Assembly: GCF_900111585.1 (NCBI RefSeq)
Contig: NZ_FOHI01000004.1
Location: 62,001 to 126,000, forward strand
Direction: 5' to 3'
Origin: Nitrosospira multiformis
GTDB taxonomy: Bacteria > Pseudomonadota > Gammaproteobacteria > Burkholderiales > Nitrosomonadaceae
Length of the DNA stretch: 64,000 bases
Position numbers and translations under genes: made by a program. Position 1 is the stretch's first letter; each line of letters starts with the position of its first letter. Under the pieces are notes generated by a model. The model had not been told where the DNA came from and ran no database searches. It was given only the letters and a program-made list of their open reading frames with translations. Below, in pieces: positions 5,798 through 34,161 of this stretch.

Positions 5798-5902
5798 ATT
5801 AGCGATGAGACGGGAGGGGGAGCGCCAGTAAATATAAGCGCGGGCGACAGCATCGCCCTCTATTCCACCTTCCTTCGGCAGATTCAGGACGAACAACGAC
5901 AG

Positions 5903-26837: not shown

Positions 26838-27095
26838 CTAATCATTTGCTTCCCTCCACTTCGCCGCCGCGAGACAAACTGCTTCCCGCAATGTGGAGGC
26901 GCTGCTTCTGATTTCATCGCAATAGAGAGTGAAGCCGCCACAAGATTGCGATGTCGGACGATTATAGACGGCTTGGTCGCAGTATTCGCTTAACCAGTCA
27001 AGTATCTCGGTATCCGAGAGATCAAGGGGGGTGGGACGATGTTCGGTCCACGCTGCCATCCAGTTCATCCATTGTCCCACCCCGTTTCCCATCAC
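26838..27095 (-). CDS. Small protein of unknown function in the island
   Basis: An 85-residue protein starting MMGNGVGQWMNWMAAW and ending LREAVCLAAAKWREAND. I do not recognise a family. The last segment resembles the short C-terminal helix of several phage-encoded conserved small proteins. AGGGAGAGCG just before the ATG provides a ribosome site. About 220 bp upstream is a strong promoter overlapped by two operator copies, so this is the apparent target of the second repressor site. Three cysteines are present but form no zinc motif. Confidence 0.5.
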   Translation of the reverse strand: MMGNGVGQWMNWMAAWTEHRPTPLDLSDTEILDWLSEYCDQAVYNRPTSQSCGGFTLYCDEIRSSASTLREAVCLAAAKWREAND

Positions 27096-27149
27096 GCTCT
27101 CCCTCGCTCTACCCTAGTTTACCCTTTCAAATCGGGTTCAATTTCCGCG

Positions 27150-27164
27150 CCAGGCACAGCCTGG
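27150..27164 (-). other. Leader hairpin CCAGGC-tgt-GCCTGG
   Basis: A perfect 6-bp stem with a 3-base loop in the predicted 215-nt leader between the repressed promoter and the 85-residue gene. No function can be assigned. Confidence 0.35.
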
Positions 27165-27319
27165 ATATTTCTTTGTGCCTTTCCCTTCCCTGACCGCTTG
27201 TCTTTCGACGCCCTGAGGGTCTTACTCGATCGAGGCTATGCCTGAGGCAGGCTGCACGTCTGTTTCACGGATGTTGCAACACCGGGACCGATCAACTGTG
27301 ACGTTGCAACATGGAGAGC

Positions 27320-27348
27320 ATAATACAAGTATTACTTGTAATTGTCAA
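27320..27348 (-). promoter_or_regulatory. Strong leftward sigma-70 promoter overlapped by operators
   Basis: On the minus strand it reads TTGACA, a 17-base spacer and TATTAT. The spacer holds one operator palindrome and the -35 lies in a second. It is nearly identical, in the same register, to the rightward promoter at 28910. Confidence 0.75.
27324..27340. promoter_or_regulatory. Operator copy, perfect (left array, site 1)
   Basis: TACAAGT-att-ACTTGTA, two perfect 7-bp arms. The same arms recur beside the repressor gene 1.6 kb away. Confidence 0.75.
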
Positions 27349-27360
27349 GATAAACTTGTA
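27344..27360. promoter_or_regulatory. Operator copy, 11 of 14 arm bases (left array, site 2)
   Basis: GTCAAGA-taa-ACTTGTA, centred 20 bp (two helical turns) from site 1. A further half-site ACAAGTA follows at 27362-27368. Confidence 0.6.
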
Positions 27361-27452
27361 AACAAGTATCGGATGGAAGGGAAGGGGTTGGGTTTTGAAA
27401 GATCGGGATCGGGCAATCGCTGGAAGTCTTGGGAAATACGGATAAATGCAAG

Positions 27453-27779
27453 TTAACGGGCGGGAATCCTGACGAAAGGAACTTCAGCCTGGCGCTCGTG
27501 TGTTCTGCCTGGGCCGAACTCCATCACCTGATCATCACGAAGGATGACCGAATAATCGACAGCATCCCGATAGGGTCCACCAAATAAGGACCAGGAGTGC
27601 CGACGATCGATATAAAGCAACGCCTCATAATCGCCACTGCGCTGATAGCCATCCGGATTACCCGCAATGCTTATCACTTGCTCTTTTGTCATGCCTTCCC
27701 GAATGCCTGACATTTTTCCCGTGATAACACACGAAGAAAGCACCAACATGCTGAGCAAGGCAACAATAAGATTTTTCAT
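27453..27779 (-). CDS. Small BamE/SmpA-like lipoprotein
   Basis: A 108-residue protein starting MKNLIVALLSMLVLSSC, a short signal peptide with lipobox LSSC (acylated Cys at 17). The region IREGMTKEQVISIAGNPDGYQ, followed by YEALLYIDR, has the layout of the SmpA/OmlA (BamE) fold. AGGAATTCAT before the ATG is the ribosome site; a 33-codon extension upstream is not signal-like and was dropped. As an extra BamE-like lipoprotein in an accessory region it is more likely a small envelope protein than the housekeeping BamE. Confidence 0.65.
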   Translation of the reverse strand: MKNLIVALLSMLVLSSCVITGKMSGIREGMTKEQVISIAGNPDGYQRSGDYEALLYIDRRHSWSLFGGPYRDAVDYSVILRDDQVMEFGPGRTHERQAEVPFVRIPAR

Positions 27780-27879
27780 ATGAATTCCTGATCGATAAAA
27801 AGGTGAAAAGGGAAGAGGATATAAAATTCCAAAGAAATCAGTATGTTCTCTCGTACAGAACTTCGGCCTTCCGGACAAA

Positions 27880-28101
27880 TCAGCTCTCCAGTTCCCGGAT
27901 AAGCAATGCGACTTCCGCTACTTCACCCAGCACTTCCTTTACTGCCTGCTCAAGTGTATACCTCCTTTTTTCCAGTTCCCGCGACTCCTCGGGGAATTGC
28001 ATAATGTATCTGTCACGTTTTGCACGTGCCTTTTCTGATACATGAAAAGCGAGCAGCATCTCCGTGCTGTCATACGGCAGTCTATTTGCTAATGGTCTCA
28101 T
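27880..28101 (-). CDS. Hypothetical charged helical protein
   Basis: A possible 73-residue protein rich in Glu, Arg and Lys. The second half (ESRELEKRRYTLEQAVKEVLGEVAEVALLIREL) predicts one long amphipathic helix. No family is recognised. No Shine-Dalgarno sequence precedes the first ATG, and a shorter form starting MLLAFHVSEKARAKR is possible. It lies between the lipoprotein and the repressor on the same strand. Confidence 0.4.
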   Translation of the reverse strand: MRPLANRLPYDSTEMLLAFHVSEKARAKRDRYIMQFPEESRELEKRRYTLEQAVKEVLGEVAEVALLIRELES

Positions 28102-28308
28102 GATGGCAGGAGGTACTGGCGTATTACTGGTCCAGATTATTATAAGGCACCAACTCTTCTATTATTCGATGATATTCATGAGTAAGTGACGCAAATATAT
28201 TCTGTATTTCCTTATGTATCTTTTCTTTTTATAAACATACTACAACAGCGTCAGCTGCGGCGTCTGTCATTTTTGCGGCGATCCATTCCATGCCTGGAAA
28301 GCCGTCGT

Positions 28309-28863
28309 CTATCTGATTGCCGTCTTTCCCCTGACCTTCGTTCTACTCTCGGGCATCCGACGCGGAGGAAAAGCTGGAGGTGGATGAGGAGGCAGATCCG
28401 GTACCGGTAGCGGTTTCAGATCTACCGAAGGAACCACCTCAACCACTTCGGCAGCTGTTTCACCCACCAGCGCCTTGCTTATTGTTACCAGTCGTGCTGC
28501 ATCTTCTTTAGACATGCGTCGCATTGCTTCGACAACCTGATTGATAAGTGCATCGTTCTCCGAAACCGGTTTCTCAGCGACGCGGGGAGAAGTACCTCGA
28601 GTTCCACGTGCCGGATTCTCCGGTTGACGCGATACTGTAGCATCAGGCGCAGCCGGAACTTCCAGTGACATCCCGAAATGCATCATCGCCGGGGGCAGCT
28701 TGAGCACTTCCGCGATCCTGTTCAGTCTTTTCCCGCGAGGTTGCGTAGCCCCAGATTCCCACTGCTGAACCGCTTGTGGAGATACGCCCACAAGCTCGGC
28801 CAGCTCCGACTGGTTCAATTTAAGCTTTTCGCGCCCCTCGCGAATTATCCGCGCAATGTCCAT
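28309..28863 (-). CDS. Xre-family phage-type repressor
   Basis: A 184-residue protein with an N-terminal Cro/CI helix-turn-helix (residues 1-58: IIREGREKLKLNQSELAELVGVSPQAVQQWESG; recognition helix SPQAVQQWE). A linker of about 40 residues is followed by a short helical segment (ENDALINQVVEAMRRMSKEDAARLVTISKAL) and a Pro-rich basic tail. There is no S24 peptidase domain, so RecA-induced self-cleavage is not expected. The ATG at 28863 is preferred over an upstream TTG because TATTAT is placed so that transcription would start at about this ATG. Three operator copies lie immediately upstream, implying autoregulation. Confidence 0.85.
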   Translation of the reverse strand: MDIARIIREGREKLKLNQSELAELVGVSPQAVQQWESGATQPRGKRLNRIAEVLKLPPAMMHFGMSLEVPAAPDATVSRQPENPARGTRGTSPRVAEKPVSENDALINQVVEAMRRMSKEDAARLVTISKALVGETAAEVVEVVPSVDLKPLPVPDLPPHPPPAFPPRRMPESRTKVRGKTAIR

Positions 28864-28869
28864 GCCATC

Positions 28870-28875
28870 ATAATA
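28870..28875 (-). promoter_or_regulatory. -10 element of the repressor maintenance promoter
   Basis: TATTAT on the minus strand ends 6 bases before the repressor ATG, so the predicted start site is the ATG itself (leaderless). The -35 position (AAGCGG) is poor, as in promoters that need activation. Confidence 0.5.
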
Positions 28876-28890
28876 CAAGCAATTCTTGCA
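28874..28890. promoter_or_regulatory. Operator copy, 11 of 14 (right array, site 3)
   Basis: TACAAGC-aat-TCTTGCA, lying across the repressor's own -10, the place expected for negative autoregulation. Confidence 0.6.
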
Positions 28891-28897
28891 CCCCGCT

Positions 28898-28914
28898 TAC
28901 AAGTTTCACTTGAC
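28898..28914. promoter_or_regulatory. Operator copy, 12 of 14 (right array, site 2)
   Basis: TACAAGT-ttc-ACTTGAC, overlapping the -35 of the rightward promoter and lying just upstream of the repressor promoter. Confidence 0.7.
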
Positions 28915-28938
28915 ATATACAAGTAAAACTTGTAATAA
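28910..28938 (+). promoter_or_regulatory. Rightward sigma-70 promoter overlapped by operators
   Basis: TTGACA, 17 bases, TAATAA. The spacer contains the perfect operator copy. Register and sequence match the leftward promoter at 27320-27348. Confidence 0.65.
28918..28934. promoter_or_regulatory. Operator copy, perfect (right array, site 1)
   Basis: TACAAGT-aaa-ACTTGTA, both arms perfect, centred 20 bp from site 2. Confidence 0.8.
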
Positions 28939-28990
28939 TACCCCTCATTAGAAATCTTCAAGCAAAAAAGGTTCATTTCACCAAGGAATC

Positions 28991-29144: not shown

Positions 29145-29381
29145 ATGAGAACTGGTATCAGAAGATCAGACATCGAGAAGAACGATATGTGCTTGCCTCT
29201 TGAGCGTTGGGAGTATGGAAATCCGGAAGCGGTTGCAGAGCGTAGGCAGACTCGATCATGTCACGGCTGCCGGCATGAATCGAAAATCCGAATGGGGTGG
29301 AATAACCTGGAGTTCTGTGAAAAAGGGCAAAAACACGGCGTTCGTTGTACATTTTTTCAAAAAAAGGGATATGACAAATGA
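29145..29381 (+). CDS. Small Cys-containing island protein
   Basis: A 78-residue protein with a GGAG ribosome site 8 bases before its ATG. Residues 35-70 hold four of its five cysteines (SCHGCRHES ... LEFCEKGQKHGVRCTFF), a possible C-x2-C...C-x8-C metal site. No family is recognised. It overlaps the next gene through ATGA, so the two are translationally coupled. It lies 200 bp after the repressed promoter, the usual place for early lytic genes. Confidence 0.6.
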   Translation: MRTGIRRSDIEKNDMCLPLERWEYGNPEAVAERRQTRSCHGCRHESKIRMGWNNLEFCEKGQKHGVRCTFFQKKGYDK

Positions 29382-29902
29382 AATTTAATGATCCGCAGCA
29401 TGCATTGAGCTGGGCGTATGAAACCACTAGCCGTCCAATCGTGAAAATCTCATCCGTTAACGCGATGCGTGGACCTGACAGAGCAGGGGAGAGCGGCGCA
29501 AATGGTGAATTGACCGCGCACGATCTTCACGCACAGGCAGCGCTGATTCTAAGCCTATGCAACCGCATATTATCCGATCTGCATATAGCGTATATTAATG
29601 TTCAGTTTGGCCGGGAAGCGAGCGGCTTCGATCTGCTCAGTCGGCACCTTGCTGCAAATTTTGGGACAGGAATTCATCACCGCAGGGGTATCGAGCAGAT
29701 AATCCGCGCTTACTGTGGCCAAAAGATCGGATTGCGTGAAATCAGGAAAACTATGGCCTGTGGAATGCTCAAGGCGGCCTCATTGCGTAATCGTGGTTAT
29801 GACGCGCTCGATCTGATTCATGATCAGGCGATGGATATGTTGCAAAGGGAGATGGAAAGCCGCGGCCTACTGCGGAGCCCTGTGGTCAGTGAAATGGCGT
29901 AA
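29378..29902 (+). CDS. Phage-type protein of unknown function, possible helix-turn-helix
   Basis: A 174-residue protein beginning MKFNDPQHALSWAYETTSRP. The middle (LTAHDLHAQAALILSLCNRI) and the C-terminal stretch (QKIGLREIRKTMACGMLKAASLRNRGYDALDLIHDQA) are helical. The latter has the spacing of a helix-turn-helix. I recall similar proteins from the early regions of betaproteobacterial prophages, but cannot name one. Its place after a repressed promoter suggests a transcriptional regulator or antiterminator; this is inference. The start overlaps the preceding stop by 4 bases. Confidence 0.65.
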   Translation: MKFNDPQHALSWAYETTSRPIVKISSVNAMRGPDRAGESGANGELTAHDLHAQAALILSLCNRILSDLHIAYINVQFGREASGFDLLSRHLAANFGTGIHHRRGIEQIIRAYCGQKIGLREIRKTMACGMLKAASLRNRGYDALDLIHDQAMDMLQREMESRGLLRSPVVSEMA

Positions 29903-30242: not shown

Positions 30243-30523
30243 GCGGATGCGCAACTCTACTCTCAAAACATGCGCCATTATCCCGTGAATCGGTGAAATA
30301 TCCAGGTTAAACGTCGGCTTGTGCCCCCATCAACACTGCGTATTGTGGAAGATTCAAATCCTCAGAATGAAGTTCTGTAACGATTCTGCCTTCCTTGGTT
30401 GGGTACGCCACCGCACAGAATTAGCCCGCCGATTTATGCAATTCTCAAGCGGCATGAACCCAGACAGAACGGTGAGTACCGGGTCTGTTTTATCACAGAT
30501 AATCTACCCCGAAGAATTTAAAT

Positions 30524-30808
30524 ATGAGAAAGTCTATTATTTCAGTAGGAATGAGCGGATTCGTGATAGCAATGCTTGCCGGATGCGGTACCCGCACCGC
30601 GCAGGAAGACGTCAGATCCGTTGATTGGTATGAGTCGCATGAAACGGAACGAACTGCAAAGCTAAAAGATTGCATGACCAGTCCGCGCACGCTGGATGCA
30701 ACGCCCGATTGTGTCAATGCGAGCCGTGCTGAAAATAATATTAAAGCAGCGACTAAGTGGGCTACGCCAGACGAAGGTGTGCGGACTGAGCCATCTATCA
30801 GAAATTAA
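30524..30808 (+). CDS. EexN-family lipoprotein
   Basis: A 94-residue lipoprotein. The signal peptide MRKSIISVGMSGFVIAMLAGC ends in a perfect lipobox (Cys 21). The mature part has the EexN pattern VDWYESHETERTAKLKDCMTSP ... TPDCVNASRAENNIKAATKW, with two cysteines that could form a disulfide. EexN and TrbK-like proteins act in entry exclusion on conjugative plasmids, but chromosomal relatives occur widely without known role. No conjugation genes are in the window. It is convergent with the P-type ATPase. Confidence 0.75.
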   Translation: MRKSIISVGMSGFVIAMLAGCGTRTAQEDVRSVDWYESHETERTAKLKDCMTSPRTLDATPDCVNASRAENNIKAATKWATPDEGVRTEPSIRN

Positions 30809-33796: not shown

Positions 33797-34161
33797 TGTT
33801 CATCTGCCTGCTTCTTGTTTTCCTTGTTTGTTCTGTAACATAGGGGGCGTTGAACAGATATTACTGGCGCAACTGGATACCGGAATGCTGCCGAAAAGGC
33901 GGTGATAATCGGTACATGGACCTTGGGACGATCGATTTTAACTGCAATTCGTTCACTCAGGACTGCCAGGATTGTTCAAGAGTTTCTTGTACTGAAGATA
34001 GGCTGGAAAAAACAACAGTAGGGGTAGTGGAAGTAGAGCTTACCTAGATAACCGACAAAAGATCGGTGGATCAGGTGTTCCAGAGATGAGTCTCTCTAAT
34101 CGAGAGCTTTTTGAATTTTCTTTGAAGAAAGCGGCCTGCCAAAATGGCGACAGAGTGCTTT

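Follow-up and report, generated by a model that had tools for sequence, protein, structure and literature searches.

Architecture of the Locus

The window analyzed here is a 64,000-nucleotide stretch of Nitrosospira multiformis DNA (contig NZ_FOHI01000004.1, positions 62,001 to 126,000 of the forward strand; coordinates below count from its first base). Within it, a gene for an Xre/CI-type repressor lies between two outward-facing promoters, each covered by operator sites. We compared this module across 22 loci, namely the window and 21 further ones, and gene order is the same in all of them: p85 points leftward from the left promoter and operators (PL and OL), a lipoprotein-like gene, p73, and the repressor gene occupy the middle, and p174 points rightward from the right operators and promoter (OR and PR).

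The repressor has 184 amino acids (28309 to 28863, minus strand, ATG at 28863) and an HTH_3 domain (helix-turn-helix, HTH) at residues 7–58. A sequence-only reading of the window had described five operators in two arrays, and they lie where it placed them: across the 14 arm bases of a 17-mer, the sites at 27324 and 28918 have no mismatch, the site at 28898 has two, and those at 27344 and 28874 have three each. The window has six matches with at most three mismatches, the sixth being an isolated three-mismatch site at 33975; 100 shuffles gave a mean of 0.83 and a maximum of 5, so that none equaled the count observed. In the 3.2-Mb genome, sites with at most two mismatches are confined to the locus (27324, 28918, and 28898), rather than occurring at the background frequency that would have spoken against the operators. 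At up to three mismatches there are 51 places, fewer than in the reversed control (184). Three-mismatch sites are therefore meaningless by themselves, and the two in the window count solely because of their position within the arrays. The five operators are real, and a 12-bp core, TACAAG-N5-CTTGTA, fits them better than the 17-mer does.

A promoter scan places PL, read from the minus strand, under the left array and PR, read from the plus strand, under the right one. In the scanned stretch there are three promoter-like matches, not above shuffles (3.2); two score 11/12, and both are on the arrays. PL (27320 to 27348, minus strand, TTGACA-17-TATTAT) keeps TTGACA and the 17-bp spacer in 22 of 22 loci. 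Within that spacer is OL1 (27324 to 27340), whose core has no mismatch in any locus, and overlapping the −35 hexamer is OL2 (27344 to 27360), which is in register with at most three core mismatches in 10 loci, the window among them. OL2, one of the two left sites of the sequence-only reading, is thus poorly conserved; in L069, L070, L075, and L076 it resembles, by eye, a variant with one more base in the spacer. PR (28910 to 28939, plus strand, TTGACA-18-AATAAT) retains TTGAC in every locus. OR1 (28918 to 28934) lies within the PR spacer with zero or one core mismatch and OR2 (28898 to 28914) overlaps the PR −35 with two core mismatches, both in 22 of 22 loci. The seemingly imperfect arm CTTGAC of the sites at 28898 and 27344 doubles as a −35 hexamer (TTGAC), as it does for OR2 in all 22 loci.

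OR3 (28874 to 28890; one or two core mismatches, all loci) covers the −10 and spacer of the putative promoter of the repressor, PRM. The PRM −10, assigned by sequence (TATTAT, 28870 to 28875, minus strand), is only 7 nt ahead of the repressor ATG, and the repressor mRNA may therefore be leaderless; this geometry is kept in 17 of 22 loci, and the remaining five have 45–53 nt. The center of OR2 is at about −43 relative to the inferred transcription start site of the repressor gene. Spacings of 24 and 20 bp in the right array and 20 bp in the left one are as first reported. Across loci, the spacing is 24 bp between the third and second right sites in every case and 20 bp (18 loci) or 19 bp (4 loci) between the second and first. 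The suggestion that the sites share one DNA face holds in part: 20 bp is about 1.9 turns, but 24 bp is about 2.3.

Taken together by sequence, the five operators, the repressor, and the promoters read as an OL/OR region with the logic of phage lambda. In lambda, OR2 is at −42 of the repressor promoter, the cI mRNA is leaderless, and rexAB lies between the repressor gene and OL. The module likewise has a CI-type repressor, a three-site OR whose best match falls within PR, an outward PL covered by operators, OR2 near −42 of the repressor promoter with a possibly leaderless mRNA, and two genes in the interval between repressor and OL. These are the 108-amino-acid lipoprotein-like gene (27453 to 27779, minus strand), in the position of rexAB, and p73 (27880 to 28101, minus strand), a 73-amino-acid protein with no assigned function and no Pfam match; both are present in 22 of 22 loci. 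The lipoprotein-like protein has weak BamE/LPAM similarity below cut-offs and matches phrog_3135 (E 7.7e-5).

The module also differs from lambda. An open reading frame (ORF)-plus-motif test found a divergent Cro-like ORF in none of the 22 loci; applied to 54 viral relatives, the same test detects such an ORF in 50. The locus is therefore not a complete lambda switch, and of the earlier comparison what stands is the repressor between two outward, operator-covered promoters. Further differences are the 24/20-bp spacings, the weak OL2, a structured RNA under PL, the lack of integration or virion genes at the site, and an apparently vertical fixation in the genus. The repressor also has no recognizable peptidase domain, as had been noted: there is no peptidase family match in Pfam or NCBIfam, and the predicted structure consists of the HTH and a helix hairpin only (predicted local distance difference test, pLDDT, 71). 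The missing recognizable domain speaks against RecA-stimulated self-cleavage, which is unlikely here, and induction would then require an antirepressor, proteolysis, or a signal. The new induction route of the sequence-only reading is a conjecture drawn from this absence. Recognition-helix residues 29–36 are invariant in the 18 of 22 loci that were aligned (alignment A1, without L066, L068, L072, and L077; the repressor-fold alignment, A4, omits L089 and L094). A toxin–antitoxin or anti-phage defense system was considered and rejected, since the matches extend only over the HTH part of the repressor and are below NCBIfam cut-offs. A repressor regulon elsewhere in the genome was likewise rejected, as perfect 12-bp matches are confined to the locus among the genomes listed up to G111.

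Conservation and Descent across the Genus

Both the repressor and p174 have orthologs in 22 of the 23 genus genomes examined; they are missing from G108, which is 80% complete, and present in all 22 genomes that are at least 90% complete. The named copies belong to Nitrosospira and Nitrosovibrio. A search for the repressor together with its operators in related genomes, as had been proposed, thus recovered the repressor in 22 of 23 and the OR sites and OL1 in 22 of 22 loci. Because the same layout occurs in 22 of 23 genomes, the module is not a stray scrap of prophage, and a strain-specific prophage remnant was rejected on the same distribution of repressor and p174.

The genes of the module are under purifying selection. 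Ratios of nonsynonymous to synonymous substitution (dN/dS) are 0.03–0.20 for p174 and 0.10–0.30 for the repressor, with one near-identical pair at 0.68 (Nei–Gojobori, 13 chosen pairs, without account of phylogeny or saturation). The remaining genes are below 0.5, with p78 the loosest. A tree of the concatenated module and one of the host protein ThrC, both built from 22 of 23 genomes (G108 lacks the module), have 10 of 19 splits in common, and the distances correlate strongly (Mantel r 0.93, 0 of 9999 permutations). Vertical inheritance from the ancestor of the genus is the simplest reading.

The most diverged module is L085, from genome G112, in which the RNA described below is degenerate, OL2 is out of register, and the match to the repressor has an in-frame TGA. 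The module may be decaying in this genome.

A Structured RNA in the PL Leader

Conservation within the locus peaks in an RNA core of 125–127 nt near the head of the predicted PL transcript (27145 to 27271, minus strand). Its mean pairwise identity is 0.86 across 21 loci (without L085), versus 0.48 in the leader on both sides; for comparison, identity is 0.63–0.73 in the DNA of the genes, 0.79 in the repressor HTH, 0.81 in OR with PR, and 0.67 in OL with PL. The consensus fold has 30 pairs, with 99.5% of cells paired versus 31–39% in slid controls. Six pairs changed on both sides, whereas shuffles average 1.3 and none of 500 reach six. Relatedness may inflate these figures, and the structure they come from was derived from the alignment on which it is scored. 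Alignment A5 omits the degenerate L085, and A6 also omits L072, which is nearly identical to L071.

A model of this RNA finds one copy per genome in 21 of the 23 genomes of the genus and none in G108 or G112. Across 399 genomes of the order, it finds the RNA in two, both of this genus, under stricter filters with which weak matches can be lost. So far the RNA has been detected in this genus alone. It has no Rfam match: a comparison with Rfam 15 gave three sub-threshold matches (E 2–4), none overlapping it. Run on 44 sources, 33 of them from 80 viral repressor loci, the model recovered the window, the degenerate L085, and otherwise chance-level matches, and exact-pattern scans of viral contigs gave no match for either the RNA or OL. 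A small protein gene was rejected as an explanation of its conservation, since every reading frame is interrupted in at least one of the 21 sequences. The RNA could act as a leader of p85 that senses a ligand or a protein, or as a trans-acting RNA.

The first gene of the PL transcript is p85 (26838 to 27092, minus strand), an 84-amino-acid phage-type protein present in 22 of 22 loci. It shares 54% identity with a protein encoded on viral contig L189, and residues 25–83 have a 66% match in L213, but L213 has no operators.

A Candidate Antiterminator in the PR Arm

Downstream of PR, p174 (29378 to 29902, plus strand) is probably an antiterminator of the AlpA/Q21 fold, judging by its predicted structure. 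The AlphaFold2 model (pLDDT 83.8) has eight helices and a low-confidence segment at residues 24–41. Its best Foldseek matches in PDB are two AlpA cryo-EM chains, 7xyb_G (E 3.7e-4, probability 1.00, template modeling scores 0.66/0.69) and 7xya_G (E 1.0e-3, probability 1.00), followed by a weak match to Q21, 6p18_Q (E 1.5, probability 0.33). In a viral structure library, "Antitermination protein Q" is the fourth match, behind three uncharacterized phage proteins. Alignment A2 of p174 has 15 of 22 loci, and the fold alignment A3 has the window, 14 of 17 named loci (without L089, L094, and L100), and four of five viral contigs, L185 being left out as a duplicate of L104.

Homologs of p174 are found in these five viral contigs; one of them, L185, coincides with L104, the provirus that carries the second copy of p174 in Nitrosospira sp. 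Nsp11. They sit 5′ of spanin-, lysis-, terminase-, or portal-like ORFs (labels by our own reading). In three of the five (L104, L186, and L187), the homolog is followed by a TTGAC-N17 late-type promoter and a hairpin-T terminator recognized by eye; a scan flags both elements in L104, the promoter alone in L186, and the terminator alone in L187. Neither element follows the homolog in L188 and L189, which are near-identical. Placement ahead of a late promoter recalls phage 21 Q, as does the third Foldseek match, but that structural score is weak and the module has no adjacent late promoter. In genome G109, a further p174 paralog is 8 kb from an HK97 capsid gene. The homolog in the Nsp11 provirus (L104/L185) is 70% identical to the p174 of the module and has its own late-type promoter, and the p174 of the module might cross-act on this provirus.

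Other genes accompany p174. Its start overlaps the stop of p78 (29145 to 29381, plus strand), a small Cys/His-rich protein that tblastn recovers from 18 of 22 loci. In 17 of 22 loci, genes with DUF1376 and DUF6475 separate OR from p174; the window and its four closest relatives have neither. In nine loci, a secreted-looking gene of about 225 amino acids (F20; L071, 12315 to 12995), for which we found no confident family match, is between the DUF6475 gene and p174.

Probable Phage Origin of the Switch

Relatives of the repressor in viruses often have the same operators. Among the best 80 of 86 viral relatives, many of them near-identical, 54 loci have at least two TACAAG-N5-CTTGTA sites (at most two mismatches) no more than 250 bp away from the match to the repressor. 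A distal operator pair occurs in 11 of the 80, and 10 of these have both arrays. Five control palindromes gave 0 of 80 for near clusters and 0 of 80 for distal pairs. On such sequence evidence, the operator class belongs to phages. The repressor class, p85, and p174 are phage kin. In the phage record collection searched, p174 and p85 have no match.

A locus in a sister genus (L087, 9335 to 16635) has the same operators in two arrays and a Cro-like ORF, and an antirepressor-like gene is at 5827 to 6588 of L087 (both labels are our own reading). This locus may be related to the ancestral phage switch.

Origin and Role of the Module

We consider it probable that the module comes from a temperate tailed phage, of which it formed the immunity and early-control region, and that it was domesticated, became fixed in the genus ancestor, and has been passed down vertically. 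The bacterium has probably put the switch to work, because the operators, the probable antiterminator gene, and the conserved RNA are kept in nearly every examined genome of the genus. The suggestion that the region is a retained or reused module is supported. Integrase, packaging, lysis, and virion genes would since have gone from the site. Repressor dimers are predicted to occupy OR and OL, shutting PR, which drives p174 and also the two phage-type proteins, with DUF1376 and DUF6475, that 17 of 22 loci encode, and PL, which drives the structured RNA and then p85. The repressor would probably also tune, and may activate, its own leftward promoter via OR2 and OR3. Derepression would yield p174 from one arm and the RNA with p85 from the other. 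Acting in trans, p174 could then join RNA polymerase at a promoter outside the module and let it read through a terminator, in the manner of AlpA at alpBCDE. A more specific proposal, to which we give somewhat less than even weight, is that the genus runs the captured switch as a host regulator: an SOS-independent repressor would gate a trans-acting antiterminator of host genes, and the PL-arm RNA, of a new class, would sense the inducing signal or itself regulate.

A close described parallel is the Alp system of Pseudomonas aeruginosa (AlpR–AlpA–alpBCDE). As set out in passages of the two papers, derepression from AlpR turns on alpA and a terminator is then read through (PMC7969949), and AlpA consists of eight helices, the loop that joins helices 2 and 3 being too weak to model, with an HTH at the C terminus that contacts a site between −35 and −10 (PMC9371919). 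There, as predicted for the module, a repressor controls an antiterminator, and p174 has the same predicted fold, with eight helices and a flexible stretch between helices 2 and 3. In contrast, AlpR self-cleaves upon DNA damage and the repressor of the module has no such domain; p174 has no sequence match to AlpA; and at the module locus, the only place examined, no alpBCDE-like target or target promoter was found. An OL/PL arm, an RNA, and the phage gene set of the module are not part of Alp as those passages describe it (PMC7969949, PMC9371919).

Several observations weigh against the domestication and mechanism proposed. The Mantel and dN/dS figures take no account of phylogeny or saturation, three strong splits conflict between the module and ThrC trees (around G112 and G096/G099/G102), and flanks vary among species: within the DNA fetched, NhaA borders 9 of the 22 loci on the left side and a P-type ATPase borders 8 on the right. 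G112 lacks the RNA and has the in-frame TGA in its repressor match. OL2 is in register in fewer than half of the loci, and the whole OL and PL stretch, at 67% identity, is not above the genes. For the RNA, further pair types (14 vs. 12.9) are not above shuffles (83 of 500), and the fold of the single sequence is not unusually stable relative to shuffles (z −0.89). The Foldseek E-values for p174 are modest, p174 has no sequence match in PDB and no Pfam or NCBIfam family, and no cognate plus-strand late promoter was found 3′ of p174 in the module. The target of p174 is therefore hypothetical, and p174 is an antiterminator candidate with no local target.

Other origins would predict some of these features. 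A cryptic prophage in decay, functionless and surviving by chance, would account for the absence of detectable integrase, virion, or Cro-like genes at the locus, for the lack of DUF1376 and DUF6475 genes in the clade of the window (5 of 22 loci), and for the loss of the RNA in G112. It is already disfavored, and we rate it quite improbable, given low dN/dS in core genes, operators retained in all 22 loci, compensatory changes in the RNA, and a module in each of the 22 genomes at least 90% complete. A mobile satellite or small replicon that integrated repeatedly in the genus fits the varying flanks, the lack of virion genes seen, and the presence, in 17 of 22 loci, of PR-arm genes of replication type (DUF1376, primosomal-protein PHROGs). 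Yet the tree and distances of the module agree with the host gene ThrC, part of the loci have flanks in common, and no integrase is within 100 kb of the module among the matches listed, which together make repeated integration highly improbable.

The module could instead be a superinfection-immunity cassette, in which the repressor, perhaps with the lipoprotein and p73, silences incoming phages with TACAAG operators and the lytic arm is a by-product. This operator class is common in phages, the sister-genus locus L087 combines operators, a Cro-like ORF, and an antirepressor-like gene, and the lipoprotein gene sits where rexAB does in lambda. However, such a cassette leaves the conservation of p174, p85, and the RNA unexplained, even though p174 and the RNA are the most conserved, and no Nitrosospira phage with these operators was identified in our analysis. 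We regard immunity as the sole role as unlikely and favor a domesticated control region.

Domesticated prophages are usually recognized via retained tails, lysins, or toxins. The module is unusual in that the genus kept the decision circuit, its operators, a probable antiterminator without a late operon, and an RNA, and not the virion or lysis genes. It is therefore well suited to the question of what a phage switch does after the phage itself has disappeared. As in the "grounded" or domesticated defective prophages outlined in parts of PMC6379469 and PMC8987985, immobile prophage-derived genes are kept by the host; the difference is that the module conserves a control circuit with its cis-sites across a genus. 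If p174 does antiterminate at host promoters, it would be a further host-domesticated Q-type system beside AlpA, in ammonia oxidizers. The 125-nt RNA, which covaries and belongs to no Rfam family, is directly testable. We found no report of this locus in searches of open-access papers.

Flanking Genes and Other Features

Neighbors of the module in the window are chromosomal. The nine flanking genes scanned belong to ordinary chromosomal Pfam families, and no integrase, terminase, or virion gene was found at the locus, where the sequence-only reading had likewise seen no integrase or structural genes. HK97 capsid matches occur in 13 of 23 genomes at scattered places away from the module, and Terminase_6N occurs in 1 of 23. 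A gene-transfer agent was rejected on this distribution, which shows no genus-wide packaging cluster with these two models. The left flank has a BssS-family protein (PF13991; 25124 to 25441, minus strand). Downstream is a lipoprotein of the EexN family (30524 to 30808, plus strand; NF033894, 59.4 bits against a cut-off of 33), which is probably not part of the module.

A GGTTCGCTAGCGCACAGA-like element is located 3′ of p174 (30402 to 30419), and such elements lie upstream of EexN copies and other genes. With at most one mismatch, it has 21 matches in the genome on both strands, including two overlapping pairs, versus 3 for the reversed control. We considered it as a target of p174 and rejected this, since the element also accompanies EexN copies and other genes; it resembles a promoter or regulator site that serves a broader regulon.

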